Assembly: GCA_021324365.1 (NCBI GenBank)
Contig: JAJPJE010000106.1
Location: forward strand, 1 to 50,845
Direction: 5' to 3'
Length of the DNA: 50,845 nt
Source: Terriglobia bacterium
GTDB taxonomy: Bacteria > Acidobacteriota > Terriglobia > Terriglobales > Acidobacteriaceae
Part shown: positions 412 to 37,522 of the stretch, piece by piece
Position numbering within the stretch: the first letter of the stretch is position 1
How the letters are laid out: every line of letters begins with the position of its first letter
Notes under the pieces: generated by a model
Seen by the model: only the letters and a program-made list of their open reading frames with translations
What the model was told of the DNA's origin: nothing
Databases searched by the model: none
Translations under genes and position numbers: made by a program

Positions 412-3078
412 CTATAGTGTCACTTTACGGAGCCTTAGCGAATTCGTAATCACCGAAACTGAGCTAAAGCTCATGGCAGCGGCAGCGATGATCGGACTGA
501 GCAGGATTCCGAAGAACGGGTAGAGGACGCCTGCCGCGATGGGCACTCCGACCGAGTTGTAGACGAACGCAAAAAACAGATTTTGCTTAATGTTGCGCAG
601 CGTCGCTTCGCTGAGGCGGCGTGCTCGTACGATGCCGCGCAGGTCACCTTTTACCAGCACGATGCCGCCGCTCTCGATGGCAACATCAGTGCCGGTTCCC
701 ATCGCTATGCCAACGTTCGCTTGCGCGAGCGCGGGAGCATCGTTGATACCATCTCCGGCCATTGCAACAACTCTACCTTTTTGTTGCAGTTCTTTCACGA
801 CTCCTAACTTGCGTTCGGGGAGAACCTGGGTCATGTATTCGCTGATGCCGAGCTTAGCCGCGGTGGCTTTGGCCGTATCGGGGTGATCTCCGGTGAGCAT
901 CATCACGTTTATGCCATCTTCGCGAAGCGCACGAATCGCCTCGGCCGTTCCGGACTTGATGGGATCAGTAATCCCGAGTAGGCCCGCGAGCTTTCCGTCG
1001 ACACCGAGGAATATCACTGTTTGTCCCTGCGCGTGCAGTTCGGCGACTCGGGTAGCGACAGATGCTGGCACGTCAATATGCAGGTCTCCGACCAGCCGTT
1101 CATTCCCGGCGGCAATATTCCTGCCTTCTACGCGCCCAGTCACTCCGCTTCCGGTAAATGACTTGAAGTCCTCCACCGCCGCCAGTTTCAGCCCGTTCCC
1201 TTCGGCCGCTCTGACAATCGCAGCTGCCAACGGGTGTTCGCTACCCCGTTCCAGCGTGCCCGCCAAGCGGACGAGATCCGATTCAGGCAAGTCGCTAAAC
1301 GATATGACCGAGACAAGTTCGGGCTTACCTTGGGTAAGAGTGCCGGTCTTATCCACAACAACGGTGTCAACTTTGCTGAGGCGCTCCAGTGCCTCTGCTT
1401 TCCGAACCAGGACGCCCGCATGGGCTCCGCGTCCAGTAGCGACCATAACGGCAATGGGAGTAGCTAATCCGAGGGCGCACGGACAGGCGATGATGAGCAC
1501 CGCGACAGCGTTCACGAGTGCATAAGCGAGCCGTGGCTCCGGCCCCCAGATGGCCCAACCAATGAATGCCAGCACTGCGACACCAACGACCGCCGGAACG
1601 AAGTATCCCGCAACGCGGTCGGCGAGCCGCTGTATGGGAGCGCGGCTGCGCTGCGCTTCGCCAACCATACGCACGATCTGCGCGAGCAAGCTTTCACTTC
1701 CAACCCGATCGGCTCGCATCGTGAAGGACCCGGTGCCGTTGACCGTCGCTCCGATAACTTTATCGCCAGCGCGTTTCTCGACCGGAATGGATTCTCCGGT
1801 GATCATCGATTCGTCGACTGAGCTACCACCATCGAGAACGACGCCATCAACAGGAACCTTCTGGCCGGGACGCACGCGCAAACGATCCCCGACCTGGACC
1901 TGATCGAGGGGAACGTCGCGTTCGTTGCCGTCCAATTCCAGACGATGCGCCATTTTGGGTGACAGGTCGAGCAGGGCCCGGATGGCAGTATTGGTCCGAC
2001 CACGAGCTTTCAGTTCCAACACCTGGCCGAGGAGCACAAGAACGGTAATGGCGGCAGCGGGTTCGAAATAGACGTTGGGAGCGCCACCATGCCCGCGGAA
2101 ACTCGCCGGAAAAATCTGAGGAAAGAACGTCGCGACCAGGCTGTAGATGTACGAAACACCGACACCCAGACCGATCAGGGTAAACATGTTTGCGCTGCGA
2201 TTCTTCAGCGACGTCCAGAAGCGCTCGAAAAACGGCCATCCGCCCCAGAGCACTACCGGAGTTGCGAGCACAATGCCACCCCATGTCATCGACCACGCGG
2301 GTGCTGCATGCTTCCAGCCCGGAATCAAATCAATGAGCATTCCGCCAACAACCAGAGGCGCAGTGAGCGCGAGGCTTATCCAGAATCGGCGACTCATGTC
2401 GCGCAGTTCCGGATTGTCGGCCTCATTAGTGATCGTGCGTGGCTCCAGGGCCATCCCGCAGATGGGACAGTTCCCAGGAGCGTCGCGCACGATCTCCGGA
2501 TGCATCGGGCAGGTCCATTGGGTTTTCGTCGGCAGAATCGGTGTTTCCGGTTCAAGAGCCATGCCGCATTTCGGACAGGCCCCAGAGTGATCTTGGCGAA
2601 CTTCAGGATCCATGGGGCAGATGTAAACCGCGCGTATCGGGGCAGCGACGGTAGCCGGTTTCTCAGATGGCCGGAGATATTTCTCCGGATCAGCTTTAAA
2701 GCGATCTTCGCATTTGGGATTGCAGAAGTAGTAAGTCTGGCCGTGGTAGTCGTACTTCCCTGCCGCTTTTGCAGGATTGACTGCCATGCCGCAAACCGGA
2801 TCCTTTGCCAGAACTGCGGGAGCAGGAGTTCCGGCGGGCTTCGGTCCATCAAGGACGACCAGGTTGGCAGCCGTTCCGCTCACCGTCGGAGATGGACTCT
2901 CCTTCAGATACTTTTCGGGATCTGATTGAAACTTGGCTGCGCAGCCTTGGCAGCAGAAGTAGTACTTCTTACCTCGGTGCTCAAGGTATGCAGCCGAGTT
3001 TTCTGGATTCACGGTCATGCCGCAAACCGGATCTTTTTGCGCCATTCCCTGCAGTATCGGAAGCGACTTTTTATCCAT
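412..3078 (-). CDS. copA: Cu(I)-translocating P1B-type ATPase with tandem YHS and CPM metal-binding domains
   Basis: Inner-membrane copper exporter of 888 residues. N-terminal half, in order: YHS domain (about 16-58), second YHS domain (about 93-135), then two short heavy-metal-binding modules with CPMDP...CPKCGM (about 152-176) and CPMHP...CPICGM (about 189-212). No classical CxxC ferredoxin-like HMA domain is seen. The transport core follows: TGES 427-430 (actuator), CPC 532-534 in the ion path, phosphorylated Asp576 in DKTGT, the SEHP nucleotide-domain motif (HP at 615-616) and GDGIND hinge. The YN pair in the next-to-last helix and MSFSS in the last helix are the Cu(I) (P1B-1) signature. 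The start at 3078 has an AGGA just upstream; Met12 lacks spacing for a ribosome site. Divergent from the HMA-like gene at 3176. Substrate is inferred from motifs; silver is possible too. Confidence 0.93.
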
Positions 3079-3107
3079 GAACTATCCTGTGTTGTCCTCT
3101 AGCTATC

Positions 3108-3137
3108 AGAGTCCTCGTGCCTTATATTAGACTCTAA
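3108..3137. promoter_or_regulatory. candidate operator: inverted repeats between the copper ATPase and HMA-like gene
   Basis: The 97-bp divergent intergenic region holds AGAGTC (3108-3113) and its reverse complement GACTCT (3130-3135), and an overlapping 11-bp palindrome TTAGA-C-TCTAA (3127-3137). Symmetric sequence midway between two divergently read metal-related genes is where a shared metal-responsive regulator would bind. No regulator gene is adjacent, and I cannot match the site to CueR, CsoR or CopY consensus, so the regulator is unknown. Confidence 0.3.
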
Positions 3138-3175
3138 GTTGCTGAAGACATTACATTGTGCTTGGAGAATTCAGA

Positions 3176-3403
3176 ATGACCGCAGTCGAGATCAGTTTCC
3201 GCTACGGCCGGGTACCCGGCACACATGAAATGACGGCGATCGATAGCTTCCGCGAGGTTTACGGCATTCGTCGCGTGCAGTTCAATGAGGCGGAGCATAC
3301 CATTCGGGTGGAATACGATGCCACGCGTCTTAATGAGAATACCGTCGCTGCTCTCTTAAAGCGCGCGGGATTGGATGTCCTGGAGCGATTGGCACTCGCC
3401 TGA
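3176..3403 (+). CDS. small HMA-like (heavy-metal-associated fold) protein lacking the CxxC motif
   Basis: A 75-residue cytosolic protein. The pattern of alternating strands and two helices, with ending LLKRAGLDVLE, resembles the beta-alpha-beta-beta-alpha-beta HMA/ferredoxin-like fold of copper chaperones and ATPase N-termini. The metal-binding loop that would carry GMxCxxC instead reads GRVPGTHE, and the protein has no cysteine. ATG 3176 is chosen because GGAG (3164-3167) sits 8 nt upstream; an in-frame earlier start at 3158 has no such site. It is transcribed divergently from the copper ATPase, which itself lacks a CxxC HMA domain. It could have lost metal binding and act as a protein-interaction module, or the fold assignment could be wrong. 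Confidence 0.6.
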   Translation: MTAVEISFRYGRVPGTHEMTAIDSFREVYGIRRVQFNEAEHTIRVEYDATRLNENTVAALLKRAGLDVLERLALA

Positions 3404-3500
3404 GGGGGCGCTTCATCATGAAAATATTGCCAGATTCAGGAACTTTCTTCCCTTTTTAGCTCCATTCGTAGTATGCTGTGGAAAATCTTGGGTGAGAAAC

Positions 3501-3520
3501 CAAGAAAACCTCTGGCAGAA
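3501..3520 (+). repeat. 20-bp direct repeat, copy 1
   Basis: Reads CAAGAAAACCTCTGGCAGAA. It differs from copy 3 only at one position (A for C near the 3' end). Its first bases form the 3' arm of the 3486-3505 hairpin. Confidence 0.75.
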
Positions 3521-3561
3521 GCAGAATAGCGGCAGGAACTCGCGGCTGTTCGAACCTGAAT

Positions 3562-31835: not shown

Positions 31836-32747
31836 ATGGATTTCGACCAGCTGGAAACATTCCTGGAGGTAGCCCGCCTCAGCAGTTTTTCACGCGCGGC
31901 AGAGAAACGTTTCAGAACTCAGCCCGCCATTTCTGCACAGATTCGGGCGCTGGAAGAAGAGGTCGGGGCGAAGCTGCTGGATCGCTCCGGTGGGAAAGTT
32001 GCGCTCACCAGTCCCGGAAAGATATTCCAGAAATACGCAGAGGACACGATCCAGGCTCGCCGGTCGATGCTGACAGCGATTGCCGAAATGGAGCGCGTCC
32101 CGCGAGGCGAAATAATCGTTGGCGCAAACGAAGGGACGTGTCTCTACATACTACCGGAAGTTTTCGCCAGCTTTAAAAAGCAATACCCCAATGTCGCGGT
32201 AAACATCCGCCGCTTCGAATCGTCAAAAGTACTGGAGTCGGTCATCGAGCACGTGATCGATTTTGGGGTGGTGTCATTGCCCGTTCCCGACAATCGACTG
32301 ACTGTGGTACCGATCCACCGCGATGAACTCGTGGTGGCCTGCTCCCCCCAGCACCCGTTGGCGAAATCGAAGACGGTAGATGTGGCCACTTTAGCCGAAT
32401 ATCCCTTATTGCTCCCTAAATATGGACGAACGCGGGAAGCAATCGATGACCTTTTCCACGAACGGCGCCTGAAGCCGAATGTTTCAATGGATCTCGATTC
32501 CAGCGAATTGCTAAAGCGATTCGCCGCCGCGGACGTAGGTATTGGGCTGATCCCTCGTTCCAACGTTCAGGAAGATGTGAAGGCGAAAATCCTGGTGGCT
32601 CTGACGCTTTCGGACGTGCAGTTGCGCCGCGATCTTGCACTTGTTTTCCGTAAAGATAAAGCCCTGAGCCGCGCCGCAATGGCGTTTATGGATATCGCCG
32701 TCCGGCAAAAGAAGGTAGAGCACGCGCTGGCGCAGGTAACGAAGTAG
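31836..32747 (+). CDS. LysR-family transcriptional regulator
   Basis: 303 residues. N-terminal winged helix-turn-helix (1-60: MDFDQLETFLEVARLSSFSRAAEKRF...QPAISAQIRALEEEVGAKLLDR...), a linker helix, then the two-lobed periplasmic-binding-like effector domain (about 90-295: GEIIVGANEGTCLYILPEVFASFKKQYPNV...). LTTRs usually control a neighbouring divergent or nearby gene. The nearest same-strand candidate is the arginine decarboxylase gene starting 137 bp downstream; no divergent gene is adjacent. The effector is unknown. Confidence 0.92.
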   Translation: MDFDQLETFLEVARLSSFSRAAEKRFRTQPAISAQIRALEEEVGAKLLDRSGGKVALTSPGKIFQKYAEDTIQARRSMLTAIAEMERVPRGEIIVGANEGTCLYILPEVFASFKKQYPNVAVNIRRFESSKVLESVIEHVIDFGVVSLPVPDNRLTVVPIHRDELVVACSPQHPLAKSKTVDVATLAEYPLLLPKYGRTREAIDDLFHERRLKPNVSMDLDSSELLKRFAAADVGIGLIPRSNVQEDVKAKILVALTLSDVQLRRDLALVFRKDKALSRAAMAFMDIAVRQKKVEHALAQVTK

Positions 32748-32883: not shown

Positions 32884-33441
32884 TTGGCAAAAGACATGGT
32901 CCCCAAGCGCATCTTTCTCACCAAGGGAGTGGGAAAGCATAGAGAGCGGCTGACGTCATTTGAGCTGGCTCTGCGCGATGCAGGGATCGCCGCACAGAAT
33001 CTAGTTCGAGTTTCCTCGATCTTCCCTCCTAATTGCAAAATGATCAGCCGCAAAGAAGGTTTGCAATATCTTGATCCTGGTCAGGTCACGTTTGCCGTGG
33101 TGGCGGAAAATTCCACGCGGGAACCCCACCGCCTGCTGGCTTCGAGTATTGGCGTGGCGATTCCAGCGGACAGAAATGTCTACGGCTATCTCAGCGAGCA
33201 CCACTCTTTCGGAGAAACCGAAGATGCCGCAGGAGACTATGCCGAAGAACTCGCAGCGGAAATGCTGGCGACGACGTTGGACGTGGAATTCGATCCCGAC
33301 AAGTCCTGGGACGAGAAGAAGCAGATTTACCGCCTGTCGAATAAGATTGTGCGCACGATGAATATGACGCAGTCGGCGGTAGGAGACAAAAAAGGCCGCT
33401 GGACAACGGTAATCGCTGCGGCAATCCTGATTTTCGAGTAG
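32884..33441 (+). CDS. pdaD: pyruvoyl-dependent arginine decarboxylase
   Basis: 185 residues from TTG 32884, with GGAGG (32871-32875) 8 nt upstream. Converts L-arginine to agmatine and CO2 using a self-generated pyruvoyl group instead of PLP. The sequence [11 protein letters not shown] matches the family's self-cleavage site; by homology with the Methanocaldococcus enzyme the chain splits between Ser44 and Ser45, and Ser45 becomes the pyruvoyl group. [22 protein letters not shown] and the C-terminal A-A-A-x-L-x-F/Y end are also typical. Same neighbourhood as agmatine deiminase, N-carbamoylputrescine amidase and a DHS-like enzyme, which consume its product in order. Confidence 0.92.
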
Positions 33442-33455
33442 CCTGCGCAAAGCTC

Positions 33456-33540
33456 AGCCGCTGATCGACGCAGACTGATAACGATTGATTTCCTGAATCG
33501 CCATTCAGAAAGCCGGCATTATCCGCGTAAATCAGCGGCT
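33456..33540. repeat. 85-bp inverted-repeat element with inner hairpin between pdaD and speY
   Basis: AGCCGCTGAT (33456-33465) and ATCAGCGGCT (33531-33540) are perfect 10-bp inverted arms; beyond them the inner flank continues imperfectly (CGACGCAGA versus TCCGCGTAA, about 15 of 18 matches over the extended arm). Between them lies a separate hairpin CTGAAT-CGCC-ATTCAG (33493-33508). It fills most of the convergent intergenic space. It may be a bidirectional terminator or a small REP/MITE-like element. Confidence 0.6.
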
Positions 33541-33546
33541 CTGTTG

Positions 33547-34632
33547 TCACGATTTCTTATGCAAGCGCTCCAGCACAGCTCCCACAATCAGCGGTAGACC
33601 TACCGTGGCATCCAACAGCACCTCGCCGAACTTTCCCCCTTCCTCAGGCGGCACGAATTTTCCCCACGAGACCGCTTCCGTGTAAGGGCTTCCCGAGAGG
33701 CCTCCCCACTGCACCGGTTCCGGACAAATCCGCAGGCCGTAGTGGTAGCGTTTCAGCGGAATATCTTCCCCGCCCCGGCGAACACGCAATTCGCAATATG
33801 GCCCGAATTGTTGGGACCAGTTACGAGGTACGCCACCGCCGATTGTGAAAATGCCCAGGCGCTTTTGCCGAAGCAACGTGTCTGCAAAGAAGTTCAAATC
33901 TTCAAAAGGATCATAGCGTAGCAGTGGACGGCTCTCTTTTTTACGCTTGCGATTGTGCAGGGCGAAATCAAGCCCCATCTCCGAATCGGTAAATGCCGGA
34001 ACAAACACGGGAACGTTCTTTTCATAGGCGGAGCGCAAAATGCCTCGCCCGTCTGCGTGCTTGTGCAGATATTCCCCGATGTTGCGGTTCAGCTTGTAGG
34101 AACAGACTGTCTCGTTGTGATCCCATTTATCGAGGAGGGGAGCGACGATCCCCTCCACGAAATCCAGGTTCGTCTCCGGCTCCAGGGTGTCGTAAACGCG
34201 GTTGTATCCAGCCTCATAGAGCTCCACATCGTTGAGCTTGGCATCGTAGACGAAATGCGAACGACCGGCCGCCTCGACAAGTCCATGCGCCATAAGCGCA
34301 CCAGTTGAGACAACGGCCTTAATGATTCCGTTGTCGATCAGATCGCAGATGACCACGCCCTGCTTCGCTACTGTCATGGCCCCGGCAAGCGTCATGACGA
34401 CGAAGCAGTCCCGGTCGCGTGCCATGGCTTCCAGCACGTCGGCCCCGATACCTATCTCACGCGCGGTGAAGGCCGTCTTGCCCATAGCCCGCACCAGATC
34501 GTCGACGCCGTGAATTTTGGAGAGATCGAGTGGTTCCAGCGGAACCAGTTTGTCTTTGAATGGATCGTGTAACTCGCGGTCGATACCAGTTCCTTCTTGA
34601 TGCTGATGATGGCTATGTTTATCGTGCGACAC
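33547..34632 (-). CDS. speY: deoxyhypusine-synthase homologue (SpeY-like homospermidine synthase candidate)
   Basis: 361 residues. Deoxyhypusine synthase fold: VVMTLAGAMTVAKQGVVICDLID (NAD region), STGALMAHGLVEA, FTDSEMGLDFAL, FTIGGGVPRNW and PYTEAVSWGKF, where Lys325 is the conserved catalytic lysine. N-terminus is His-rich (HSHHQHQ). Bacteria lack eIF5A, so bacterial homologues act instead in polyamine synthesis; SpeY of Anabaena makes homospermidine. The neighbouring genes make agmatine, N-carbamoylputrescine and putrescine, which supports a role in joining a putrescine-derived aminobutyl group. Divergent from the amidase gene (190 bp). The exact substrates are inferred; this is not an eIF5A modifier. 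Confidence 0.85.
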   Translation of the reverse strand: MSHDKHSHHQHQEGTGIDRELHDPFKDKLVPLEPLDLSKIHGVDDLVRAMGKTAFTAREIGIGADVLEAMARDRDCFVVMTLAGAMTVAKQGVVICDLIDNGIIKAVVSTGALMAHGLVEAAGRSHFVYDAKLNDVELYEAGYNRVYDTLEPETNLDFVEGIVAPLLDKWDHNETVCSYKLNRNIGEYLHKHADGRGILRSAYEKNVPVFVPAFTDSEMGLDFALHNRKRKKESRPLLRYDPFEDLNFFADTLLRQKRLGIFTIGGGVPRNWSQQFGPYCELRVRRGGEDIPLKRYHYGLRICPEPVQWGGLSGSPYTEAVSWGKFVPPEEGGKFGEVLLDATVGLPLIVGAVLERLHKKS

Positions 34633-34822
34633 TATGACTCCTCATGGTTGCGACATCTGCGCCGCTTCGCTCCAGCAAACTTTCCAAGCTACAGAAACGT
34701 GAACACCGCAGTCAATGACATAACACCGCATGTGCTGATGTTCACATTCGTTCAATATTGCGCCGGCCTTTTGTTCTTGCTCGAATGCTATTCTATGAAT
34801 CGAATTTACGGAGATCGAATAC

Positions 34823-35725
34823 TTGGCAGCCGAGTCCTACAAGGTCGGCCTGGTGCAGATGCGATGTGGTCCAGAGCCTGAAGAGAATCTGGAACACGCA
34901 ATGGAGATGGTGCGCGAAGCCGCAGGCAAGGGTGCGAACGTGGTGTGCTTGCCCGAACTGTTCATGACTCAGTATTTCTGCCAGCGTGAAGAACACGGCT
35001 TCTTCGATTTGGCTGAGCCAGTTCCCGGCCCTACAACTACAAGGCTTTCGCAGCTCGCGCGTCAACAGGGCGTAGTGCTGATTGCTTCTCTCTTCGAAAA
35101 ACGCGCACCCGGTATTTATCACAACACGGCTGCCGTGTTTGACGAAGACGGATCGTTAAAGGGCATCTACCGCAAGATGCACATACCTGACGATCCGCTT
35201 TACTACGAGAAGTTCTATTTCACCCCCGGCGACCTGGGTTTCAAGGCGATCGACACAAATGTAGGTAAAGTTGGCACATTGGTTTGCTGGGATCAGTGGT
35301 ATCCGGAAGGCGCACGGTTGACAGCGCTGCAGGGTGCGAACGTACTGTTCTATCCGACAGCCATTGGATGGCATCCCTCCGAGAGACAAGAGTGGGGCGA
35401 AGCACAACACGATGCATGGCGGACAATCCAACGGGCTCATGCGATTGCGAATGGAGTTTACGTGGCGGTGGTGAATCGTGTGGGACATGAAACGGGAAAT
35501 ATCCGAGGTAATGAAGCAAAGGGAGCAGGCCTCGATTTCTGGGGAGGATCGTTCATCGCCGATGCTTTTGGGCGCGTCATTGCGGAAGCCTCGCACGATA
35601 AAGAAGAAATCCTGATCGGCAAAGTCGATTTGAAAAAGATGGAAGAAATACGCCGGAATTGGCCGTTCCTTCGCGATCGTCGTATCGACAGCTACACACC
35701 CATCACGCAACGTTTTATCGACTGA
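34823..35725 (+). CDS. aguB: N-carbamoylputrescine amidase (nitrilase superfamily)
   Basis: 300 residues from TTG 34823, GGAG (34810-34813) upstream. Hydrolyses N-carbamoylputrescine to putrescine, CO2 and ammonia. Catalytic triad of the nitrilase superfamily is intact: Glu45 (CLPELF), Lys118 (YRKMHIP) and Cys155 (LVCWDQWYPEGAR). Other family motifs: FFDLAEPVPGPTT, FYFTPGD, IGWHP. The pattern and length fit the AguB branch rather than other amidases. Its stop is 2 nt ahead of the agmatine deiminase TTG, so the two are cotranscribed and probably translationally coupled. Confidence 0.93.
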   Translation: MAAESYKVGLVQMRCGPEPEENLEHAMEMVREAAGKGANVVCLPELFMTQYFCQREEHGFFDLAEPVPGPTTTRLSQLARQQGVVLIASLFEKRAPGIYHNTAAVFDEDGSLKGIYRKMHIPDDPLYYEKFYFTPGDLGFKAIDTNVGKVGTLVCWDQWYPEGARLTALQGANVLFYPTAIGWHPSERQEWGEAQHDAWRTIQRAHAIANGVYVAVVNRVGHETGNIRGNEAKGAGLDFWGGSFIADAFGRVIAEASHDKEEILIGKVDLKKMEEIRRNWPFLRDRRIDSYTPITQRFID

Positions 35726-35727
35726 AA

Positions 35728-36867
35728 TTGGCCAGCACGCGCACAACTCAAATTGCAGCTTCCCGCACCCCGGCGGAACTTGGTTACCGAATGCCTGCCG
35801 AATGGGAGCCTCACTCCGCCACGTGGCTGGCTTGGCCACATCATAAGGCTGACTGGCCGGGCAAATTTCAGCCGATCCCGTGGGTGTTTGCGGAAATCGT
35901 GCGATATCTCTCGCGCTGTGAGCGGGTAGAGTTGCTGGTCCGGGATGAAGAGGAAGAAGCCTTCGCACGCAAAGTACTCCGTTTTACTGGTATTGCCCTG
36001 GACGAGGAGCGCCATAGCCCGAGGATGAACGGCGTCTGTTTTCATCGATGGGCCACCGATCGAATCTGGACACGTGACTATGGAGCAATCTTCGTTCGCC
36101 GAGCAAATGGGTCCATGCGGCACGCCCAGTCGCAGTTTTCATTGGGAACGACGAACTGGAAATTCAACGCATGGGCAAAGTATCCCAACTCTAAGAACGA
36201 CGACAAGATCGCGGGCCGCATTGCGCGCTTGCTCAAACTGCCTGAATGGCAGCCTTTGTCGGATGGAAAGAGAGTAGTGCTCGAGGGCGGCAGCATCGAC
36301 GTTAATGGCCTTGGAACATTAATCACAACGGAGGAATGCCTGCTGAGCGACGTACAGCAACGCAACCCCGGCTTGTCGCGTGAAGACGTCGAAAAGGTTT
36401 TCGCGGATTATCTGGGTATCAAGAACGTTATTTGGCTCGGGCGAGGCATTGTCGGTGACGACACGCATGGCCACGTGGATGACATTGCGCGCTTTGTTGC
36501 GCCCGATACCGTTGTGGCTGTGGTGGAACCGAATCCGAAAGACCCCAACCACAAACCGCTGAAGCAGAACCTGCAGACGCTGCGGCGAGCAGTGGATCAG
36601 GATGGCAAGCCGCTAAAGATAGTCGAGATGCCTATGCCGGCGCCGGTCTACTTCCGCGGCCAGCGCTTGCCTGCCAGTTACGCAAATTTTTATATCGCGA
36701 ATGGCGTGGTGCTGGTGCCGGTGTTTAACGATCCGAATGATCGGATTGCTTTAAACATCTTGGCGGACCAGTTTCGCGATCGTGAAGTGGTAGGTATTGG
36801 CTGTCGCGACTTTATTTGGGGCTTGGGCGCAATTCACTGCATGACGCAGCAGCAACCTGCGGGATGA
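35728..36867 (+). CDS. aguA: agmatine deiminase
   Basis: 379 residues from TTG 35728; a start at ATG 35791 would give 358 and keep the core (MPAEWEPHSATWLAWPH), so the exact start is uncertain. Converts agmatine to N-carbamoylputrescine and ammonia. Guanidine-modifying fold: RIWTRDYGAIFV, WKFNAWAKYP, VLEGGSIDVNGLGT, GDDTHGHVDDIARFV (substrate Asp/His) and the C-terminal GLGAIHCMTQQQP with catalytic Cys371 (numbered from 35728). Second gene of the aguB-aguA pair; converges with a methyltransferase gene. Confidence 0.94.
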   Translation: MASTRTTQIAASRTPAELGYRMPAEWEPHSATWLAWPHHKADWPGKFQPIPWVFAEIVRYLSRCERVELLVRDEEEEAFARKVLRFTGIALDEERHSPRMNGVCFHRWATDRIWTRDYGAIFVRRANGSMRHAQSQFSLGTTNWKFNAWAKYPNSKNDDKIAGRIARLLKLPEWQPLSDGKRVVLEGGSIDVNGLGTLITTEECLLSDVQQRNPGLSREDVEKVFADYLGIKNVIWLGRGIVGDDTHGHVDDIARFVAPDTVVAVVEPNPKDPNHKPLKQNLQTLRRAVDQDGKPLKIVEMPMPAPVYFRGQRLPASYANFYIANGVVLVPVFNDPNDRIALNILADQFRDREVVGIGCRDFIWGLGAIHCMTQQQPAG

Positions 36868-36904: not shown

Positions 36905-37522
36905 CTACTTCGCTTTCATTGCAACCAGCTCGGCGACGGCGCGATCTTTGATTGTTTCACGGTAATAAAGCGTTCGCAGATTCGGAAATGCATGCAGGAG
37001 CTCATTCTGCCGCAGTAAATGAGCCGGGTTCTTTGGTCCAGTCTCATACTGAAGCTGTTCGCCGGTGTAGGTTTTGTAGATCAGGATGCCGCCCGGCTTG
37101 AGGGCAGATTCCAGAGCGCTAAACAGATCGCGCTGCAGATAGTAGAAAACCAGCACGAGATCATACTTTTTGCGGTCGGGGCTCCAGGAATTGAGATCAC
37201 GAACCAGAAAGTCGATATTCACGCCGCGCTGTTCGGCTTTCTTCTCCGCTTTTTCGAATGCGACCTCGGAAATATCGACGACCGATACCTTCCAGCGCAA
37301 TTCCGCGAGCCAAATGGCGTGGCGGCCCAATCCGCCGGCAATGTCGAGGGCCGCTCCAGCCTTAGGGAATAACGGCGCAACGAAATGCTCGTAGGCTTCC
37401 AGGAGAAATGGGTCTGGTTCAAAAGAAAGATTTTCTTGCTCCGAATAACGTCGATTCCATGCGCCCCGTTCATCTGCGTCAAATTCCCAAAGCCGGTTCT
37501 CGCTGCTGGTCTCGCTCGGCAT
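36905..37522 (-). CDS. class I SAM-dependent methyltransferase
   Basis: 205 residues. Motif I ALDIAGGLGRHAIWLA (about 58-73) for SAM binding, SVVDISEVAFEKAEKKA (acidic end of strand 2, Asp), and FDLVLVFYYLQRDL-type motif II/III region. The shape (short, soluble, TehB-like) is of small-molecule methyltransferases, often annotated tellurite resistance or generic. The substrate is unknown. Its placement after the polyamine locus (convergent, 37 bp) may be chance. Confidence 0.82.
   Translation of the reverse strand: MPSETSSENRLWEFDADERGAWNRRYSEQENLSFEPDPFLLEAYEHFVAPLFPKAGAALDIAGGLGRHAIWLAELRWKVSVVDISEVAFEKAEKKAEQRGVNIDFLVRDLNSWSPDRKKYDLVLVFYYLQRDLFSALESALKPGGILIYKTYTGEQLQYETGPKNPAHLLRQNELLHAFPNLRTLYYRETIKDRAVAELVAMKAK

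Follow-up and report, generated by a model that had tools for sequence, protein, structure and literature searches.

The four genes at positions 32884–36867 of contig JAJPJE010000106.1, from a Terriglobia bacterium (phylum Acidobacteriota, family Acidobacteriaceae), form a real, largely conserved and apparently S-adenosylmethionine (SAM)-free polyamine locus. They encode a pyruvoyl arginine decarboxylase (PvlArgDC), a homologue of deoxyhypusine synthase (DHS), an N-carbamoylputrescine amidase (CPA) and an agmatine deiminase (AIH), as seen from the list of open reading frames (ORFs) and from Pfam matches (Table 1), and the Pfam scores of all four genes exclude chance. The window, the whole stretch of 50,845 nt that was analyzed, is the entire contig 100 of a 4.44-Mb genome that is 95% complete. 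We consider it probable (about 0.65) that the product of the locus is a C4-C4 triamine (sym-homospermidine being the likeliest) and that neither SAM nor pyridoxal phosphate is needed to make it. The genes, their catalytic residues, the predicted DHS fold, the conservation in relatives and the failure to find a rival route are observed. A preliminary description of this DNA had placed the four genes here on both strands, which the ORFs and Pfam bear out, but "in pathway order"; the order along the DNA is PvlArgDC, DHS homologue, CPA and AIH, with the gene of the last step second and on the minus strand.

In the proposed pathway, PvlArgDC would decarboxylate arginine to agmatine, AIH would deiminate agmatine to N-carbamoylputrescine, and CPA would hydrolyze N-carbamoylputrescine to putrescine. 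The last step would fall to the DHS homologue: using NAD and forming an imine on Lys325, it would transfer a 4-aminobutyl group between two putrescines, yielding homospermidine and ammonia. The only cofactors needed by enzymes of these families are NAD and the self-made pyruvoyl group. We infer every reaction of this pathway, and in particular what the DHS homologue takes as donor and acceptor and what it forms, all read from its genomic context.

The only polyamine route found in the host genome

The host genome contains one PvlArgDC, one match to the DHS family domain DS (PF01916), one AIH and one CPA (E ≤ 1e-40). SAM decarboxylase (PF02675) and spermidine synthase (PF01564) were searched for in the whole genome and not found, in agreement with the preliminary description, which saw no gene of the SAM route; an aspartate aminotransferase (AAT)-fold (OKR-type) decarboxylase (PF01276) was likewise not found in the genome. 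The single decarboxylase of the alanine-racemase fold (PF02784) passes the LysA cut-off (480.9 vs. 297.9 bits). The single ureohydrolase (PF00491) passes the arginase cut-off (302.2 vs. 227.6 bits) and is below the agmatinase cut-off (93.9 vs. 174.3 bits). The saccharopine-dehydrogenase fold (PF03435), shared by homospermidine synthase (HSS) and carboxyspermidine dehydrogenase, gave four weak matches; the best one (25.3 bits, cut-off 25.1) was rejected as an epimerase-family protein scoring 23.7 bits as a whole protein, and the other three are below the cut-off.

By the Pfam families searched, the SAM-dependent, carboxyspermidine and bacterial-HSS routes were not found in the host genome, and the SAM-free path from arginine through agmatine and putrescine to a triamine is the only one detected in it. 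Because the rival families were either not found or assigned elsewhere, PvlArgDC-AIH-CPA is the sole putrescine route found and the DHS homologue the sole candidate triamine synthase. The missing 5% of the assembly could hide a gene. SAM decarboxylase was found in 0/17 members of the host's family tested.

PvlArgDC itself exceeds the cut-offs of PF01862 (205.4 vs. 22.7) and TIGR00286 (119.4 vs. 106.95) and falls narrowly below that of NF009064 (201.4 vs. 207). Its Ser-Ser processing site is Ser44-Ser45, and it matches PDB 1n2m (E = 2.7e-7).

Conservation of the locus in relatives

Relatives were compared in a main set of 80 genomes, hand-picked from 198 (a first list held 101, of which 21 were dropped), and in smaller sets for the ureohydrolase (37 genomes), PF02784 (22), PF03435 (17), PF01564 (17), PF01276 (20) and CPA (18). 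Genomes with no DS match numbered 37, of which 20 were listed.

Among 17 members of the host's family, PvlArgDC was present in nine and the AAT-fold decarboxylase in eight, with no overlap and one of the two always present. Since the two enzymes are strictly alternative in these genomes, PvlArgDC is likely to be the arginine decarboxylase of the pathway. AIH and CPA were present in 17/17 family members, with a fragmented AIH in G007, G067 and G159; in G067 (locus L074, 6598–7696) the AIH frame is split in two, either by a genuine frameshift or through faulty assembly.

Exactly one DS match was found in each of 21 listed family members, and these matches are of three kinds. The host's branch occurs in the host genome, G022, G067, G076 and G111. 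The NF002699 type, named after caldomycin synthase (CdmS), was assigned by the tree in G034, G119, G127, G135 and G167 and in the rest by a score of 304–316 bits alone; an earlier reading of this ∼310-bit type as SpeY was rejected, as NCBIfam assigns it to NF002699. A remote type was found in G007 and G159. The host's DHS branch thus alternates with an agmatine-coupling (CdmS) type inside one bacterial family. The remote type (L168, L184, L185 and L167) is 26% identical to the host DHS homologue over the aligned stretch; genus g2 of the host's family has no other DS match, and the type also occurs in other families.

The host's sub-branch comprises 10 loci, within a branch of 16 rows. The DHS gene lies near the CPA gene and divergent from it in 8/10 of these loci, and seven also have AIH; in L034 the contig ends beyond CPA, and in L072 one ORF separates DHS from CPA. 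DHS is within 5 kb of PvlArgDC in 5/10 loci, including L033 and L036, where CPA is not nearby. All four genes lie within 5 kb in the host locus, L032 and L035, and the other sub-branch loci have part of the set. The comparison of gene order suggested in the preliminary description thus shows that parts of the cluster are kept in relatives, and that the compact four-gene set is seen in those three loci.

A ureohydrolase gene lies near the DHS homologue in 9 of the 79 genome loci with such a homologue (tree rows minus PDB chains and plasmid records, a subset of the DS matches), and those of L081 and L114 score above the cut-off for agmatinase. When eight of these nine genomes were checked for AIH, seven had none and G091 had a remote one (176 bits). 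As the genomes with a nearby ureohydrolase mostly lack AIH, the two deguanidination modules (AIH-CPA vs. ureohydrolase) seem to replace each other around DHS homologues. Candidate caldomycin-type sets occur in other Acidobacteriota families, with PvlArgDC, DHS and ureohydrolase in a row in L081 and L082, and DHS with ureohydrolase in L114, L115 and L118.

The DHS homologue forms a branch of its own

The DHS homologue exceeds the PF01916 cut-off (252.5 vs. 27 bits) and is a member of the DHS superfamily. Its Lys325 aligns with human Lys329, and the neighboring Trp and Glu are also kept. The predicted model (pLDDT 87.1) has the DHS fold and matches human DHS with a Z of about 31 and a root-mean-square deviation of 2.4–2.9 Å over 305–325 aligned residues. 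The His-rich N-terminus (MSHDKHSHHQHQ) has low model confidence and is not conserved.

The protein falls below all seven NCBIfam DHS-family cut-offs listed. It misses the true-DHS models TIGR00321 (180.5 vs. 304.25), NF002630 (200.6 vs. 364) and NF002006 (213.4 vs. 434), the "homospermidine biosynthesis protein" model NF001980 (145 vs. 450 bits), which we take to stand for SpeY, and the agmatine-coupling, caldomycin synthase model NF002699 (193.8 vs. 500 bits). The Acidobacteriota protein L135, which belongs to a different branch, reaches 574 on NF001980, and L079 (606.6), L066 (586.7) and L067 (564.1) exceed the NF002699 cut-off. In a tree of 86 rows, the host protein was placed in its own branch of 16 rows with a support of 100/100. 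This tree excludes five duplicate rows, the truncated row L039 and loci L001–L031; most of L001–L031 entered it as longer fetches, but nine CdmS-scoring family members did not. DSExGLD and GGGVPRNW are invariant in the 16 aligned branch members, as are the pocket residues Glu218 and Asp222 (human Ser240 and Met244). The positions of human Asp243 and Asp316 are Leu and Leu in the host protein, and Phe and Leu are the CdmS feature; these positions were rejected as a test of agmatine vs. putrescine use, as most bacterial rows carry a hydrophobic residue at 243 and Leu is frequent at 316.

The arginine-to-putrescine route followed by a DHS-family enzyme, as first described for this locus, still stands. 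The name SpeY given to that enzyme, however, is not supported by the NF001980 and NF002699 scores and the separate branch, and it should be withheld before an enzyme assay.

Among named genomes, the closest homologues (71–75% identity) are found in records titled Terriglobia, Acidobacteriales, Acidobacteriaceae, Acidobacteria and Ca. Angelobacter. The branch also has members in two other contigs, one titled Woesearchaeota (L037, 58% identity) and the other Hydrogenedentota (52%), which suggests that it has moved between phyla by transfer. The L037 member (2511–3530) could mark a transfer between bacteria and DPANN archaea; the ORF adjoining it is presumably an archaeal ribosomal protein.

Catalytic residues and amine-end pockets of AIH and CPA

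AIH exceeds the PF04371 cut-off (392.3 vs. 25 bits), contains Cys371 and the HGHxD motif (DDTHGHVDD), and matches PDB 1xkn (E = 4e-108); the numbering of Cys371 assumes a start at 35728 (379 residues). The CPA triad Glu45/Lys118/Cys155 aligns with Glu48/Lys121/Cys158 of MtCPA, and the protein matches PDB 6mg6 and 5h8i. The catalytic residues named in the preliminary description were therefore read correctly (Ser44-Ser45, Lys325 and the CPA triad), Cys371 on condition of that AIH start.

In plant AIH, Asp89 contacts the free amine of agmatine via water, and bacterial AIHs recognize the amine differently (PMC6447857). The free amine is bound in plant CPA by Glu187, which also restricts how long the substrate can be (PMC4812014). 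We compared both positions, counting duplicate fetches of one locus once. The Asp equivalent to MtAIH Asp89, two residues before a conserved Trp, is kept in 10/10 reference AIHs (1vkp, 6nib, 1xkn, 1zbr, 2cmu/3hvm, 6b10 and L193–L196; the solved AIHs 2jer and 2ewo also matched but are not among these ten) and is Arg in 14/14 Acidobacteriota AIHs, including that of the host. The Glu187 position is acidic in 5/6 reference CPAs (5h8i and L193–L196) and Leu in 6mg6; among 14 Acidobacteriota CPAs it is never acidic, being His in 12 (the host's included), Val in one and Pro in one. Both changes are present whichever DHS type a genome carries. They may reflect another substrate, or only another way of holding the same substrate. 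As acidic amine-contact residues are lost in both AIH and CPA, either putrescine or agmatine may be coupled first.

If agmatine were coupled first, the DHS homologue would join two agmatines to caldomycin, 1,9-bis(guanidino)-5-azanonane, and AIH and CPA, in place of the ureohydrolase of the Thermus pathway, would strip both guanidino ends to give homospermidine. We regard this order as doubtful. It has a precedent in Thermus CdmS, which couples agmatine, with a ureohydrolase acting in the second step (PMC10981699). The CdmS-type genomes of the host's family (five placed by the tree and five by a 304–311-bit score alone) have AIH and CPA in 10/10 cases and no ureohydrolase in 9/10, and the Arg of AIH and the non-acidic residue of CPA point the same way. 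The host DHS homologue, however, is not of the CdmS type by its NF002699 score, and members of NF002699 may not all use agmatine. In addition, the changed residues allow another reading: 6mg6 also lacks the acid, unlike the other reference CPAs; the Asp89 contact is water-mediated and was described for plants, and bacterial AIHs differ (PMC6447857); and a Glu three residues downstream of the His in the 12 His-bearing CPAs could stand in for Glu187.

Agmatine-first coupling is a stronger rival in the sister genera that carry a CdmS-type enzyme, where AIH and CPA are present and 9/10 genomes have no ureohydrolase. A broader proposal, in which the triamine is built before guanidino removal by a remodelled AIH-CPA pair and the host's DHS branch is a new enzyme type alternating with the CdmS type, is slightly more doubtful still. 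If true, agmatine coupling with AIH-CPA trimming would be a third way to homospermidine, one that we have not met in print. The paired changes in AIH and CPA offer a test that is concrete and cheap.

Other explanations for the DHS homologue and its neighbors

Several further observations weigh against the formation of homospermidine from two putrescines. By NCBIfam cut-offs the DHS homologue is outside every characterized subfamily, and no published test of the reaction of this branch, nor a polyamine profile of this lineage, was found in the literature. In all six branch members outside the sub-branch (L126, L143, L145, L152, L037 and L038), neither arginine decarboxylase, CPA, AIH nor ureohydrolase was found in the stretch fetched around DHS. 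AIH is below the cut-off of its equivalog model TIGR03380 (262.7 vs. 381.8), which 4/4 other Acidobacteriota AIHs scanned also miss (244–257). CPA is below that of TIGR03381 (308.8 vs. 410.25), although this is its best NCBIfam model, and 3/3 other Acidobacteriota CPAs scanned miss it as well (292–302). With their acidic amine contacts lost, AIH and CPA may act on a substrate that differs from the textbook one. Spermidine-synthase-domain matches occur in 4/12 family members tested (G067, G076, G111 and G167), in frames of 732–938 residues; the two frames scanned (G067 and G111) pass only the "fused MFS/spermidine synthase" subfamily model. G067 and G111 also encode a 406-residue saccharopine-dehydrogenase-family protein that no NCBIfam model claims (L099, 685–1902, and L098, 1459–2676, respectively; Pfam was run on L098), which could or could not be a second polyamine enzyme. 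A second polyamine route is possible in G067, G076, G111 and G167.

The DHS homologue might make another product from putrescine, with a partner such as cadaverine, 1,3-diaminopropane or spermidine, and homospermidine as a minor product. Its position outside the assigned subfamilies and the invariant Glu218 and Asp222 would fit such a specificity, but the families searched revealed no spermidine synthase and no decarboxylase for lysine or ornithine (sources of diaminopropane lay outside this search), and we consider this improbable. It is very unlikely that AIH and CPA serve the breakdown of agmatine for nitrogen next to an incidental DHS gene: AguA and AguB were first found as agmatine-growth genes of Pseudomonas aeruginosa (PMC12283126), but here PvlArgDC is present and linked in several loci, and DHS lies near CPA in 8/10 sub-branch loci. 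Least credible is the modification of a protein with a 4-aminobutyl group (a bacterial hypusine-like reaction, e.g., on EF-P), for which the resemblance to true DHS and the branch member in the Woesearchaeota contig could be cited, given that the true-DHS cut-offs are missed, polyamine genes are near, and other family members carry a polyamine-type homologue in its place.

Comparison with known systems

Cyanobacterial SpeY, reportedly described by Burnat in 2018, is said to be a DHS homologue of the homospermidine pathway, as we propose for the host enzyme, which differs from it by the low NF001980 score. The type of pathway is already known from Zymomonas, Fonsibacter, Diapherotrites and others with SpeD-derived decarboxylases, and from the caldomycin route. 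In Zymomonas mobilis, whose main polyamine is homospermidine, the proposed route (ZMO1020, ZMO1369, ZMO1370 and ZMO1019) comprises the same four steps, by an arginine decarboxylase, AIH, CPA and a DHS-like protein; unlike the host, it has a Group IV (ORN/DAP/ARG) decarboxylase and two separate predicted operons (PMC8594446). Clusters of arginine-to-homospermidine genes, as in the host, were described in Ca. Diapherotrites (SpeDA, SpeY and a fused AguA-AguB; PMC10407285) and in Ca. Fonsibacter (ODC-ADC with NCPAH and AIH, and SpeY in a figure legend; PMC9992855). The Diapherotrites decarboxylase is also of the pyruvoyl kind, but the decarboxylases of these two clusters derive from SAM decarboxylase or ornithine decarboxylase, whereas the host has PvlArgDC. 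CdmS of Thermus thermophilus is also of the DHS family, with hydrophobic residues where human DHS has Asp243 and Asp316 (PMC10981699). The host enzyme differs from CdmS in its NF002699 score and separate branch, and no agmatinase-type ureohydrolase was found in the host genome.

Neither the PvlArgDC set in Acidobacteriota nor the host's DHS branch was met in a literature search that mostly left out subscription papers, so that this absence supports novelty weakly. Bacteria of this phylum are common in soil. The parts of the pathway vary from genus to genus, with two unrelated arginine decarboxylases and three kinds of DHS homologue, and at the level of the phylum guanidino removal alternates between a hydrolase pair and a ureohydrolase. 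Current family models do not settle putrescine vs. agmatine for the host's DHS branch, and this variation lends itself to comparing which DHS branches act on putrescine and which on agmatine.

Neighboring genes and start sites

Table 1. Features of the locus and its upstream neighbor (positions in the window)
Feature	Positions	Strand	Length and start	Evidence	Proposed role
LysR-type regulator	31836..32747	+		PF00126/PF03466	
PvlArgDC	32884..33441	+	185 aa, TTG	PF01862 205.4 bits, E = 6.3e-61; Ser44-Ser45	
DHS homologue	33547..34632	-	361 aa, GTG	DS PF01916 252.5 bits, E = 6.5e-75; Lys325	putative triamine (homospermidine) synthase, separate branch
CPA (nitrilase superfamily)	34823..35725	+	300 aa, TTG	CN_hydrolase PF00795 233.5 bits, E = 3.4e-69	
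AIH	35728..36867	+	379 aa from TTG 35728	PAD_porph PF04371 392.3 bits, E = 2.3e-117	

A LysR gene 60–75% identical to that of the host lies at most 2.5 kb upstream of PvlArgDC and on the same strand in seven further loci (L032, L035, L036, L039, L086, L087 and L088), and it stays by PvlArgDC in L086, L087 and L088 although DHS is not near. We infer that it is a likely regulator of the PvlArgDC gene. No upstream LysR was found in L033, L070, L071, L072, L076 and L077, with less than 2 kb of upstream sequence in L033, L070 and L072. LysR genes more often face their target.

The methyltransferase gene at 36905–37522 was rejected as a member of the cluster, with zero tblastn matches in 28 loci. 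A promoter scan of the locus found no sigma-70-type site, and terminator-like sites were at chance level in the scan. The AIH ORF is open from 35659, and its likely start is the TTG at 35728, directly past the CPA stop codon. As read, none of the four genes starts with ATG, and a GGAG-like site lies upstream of the TTG starts of PvlArgDC and CPA.

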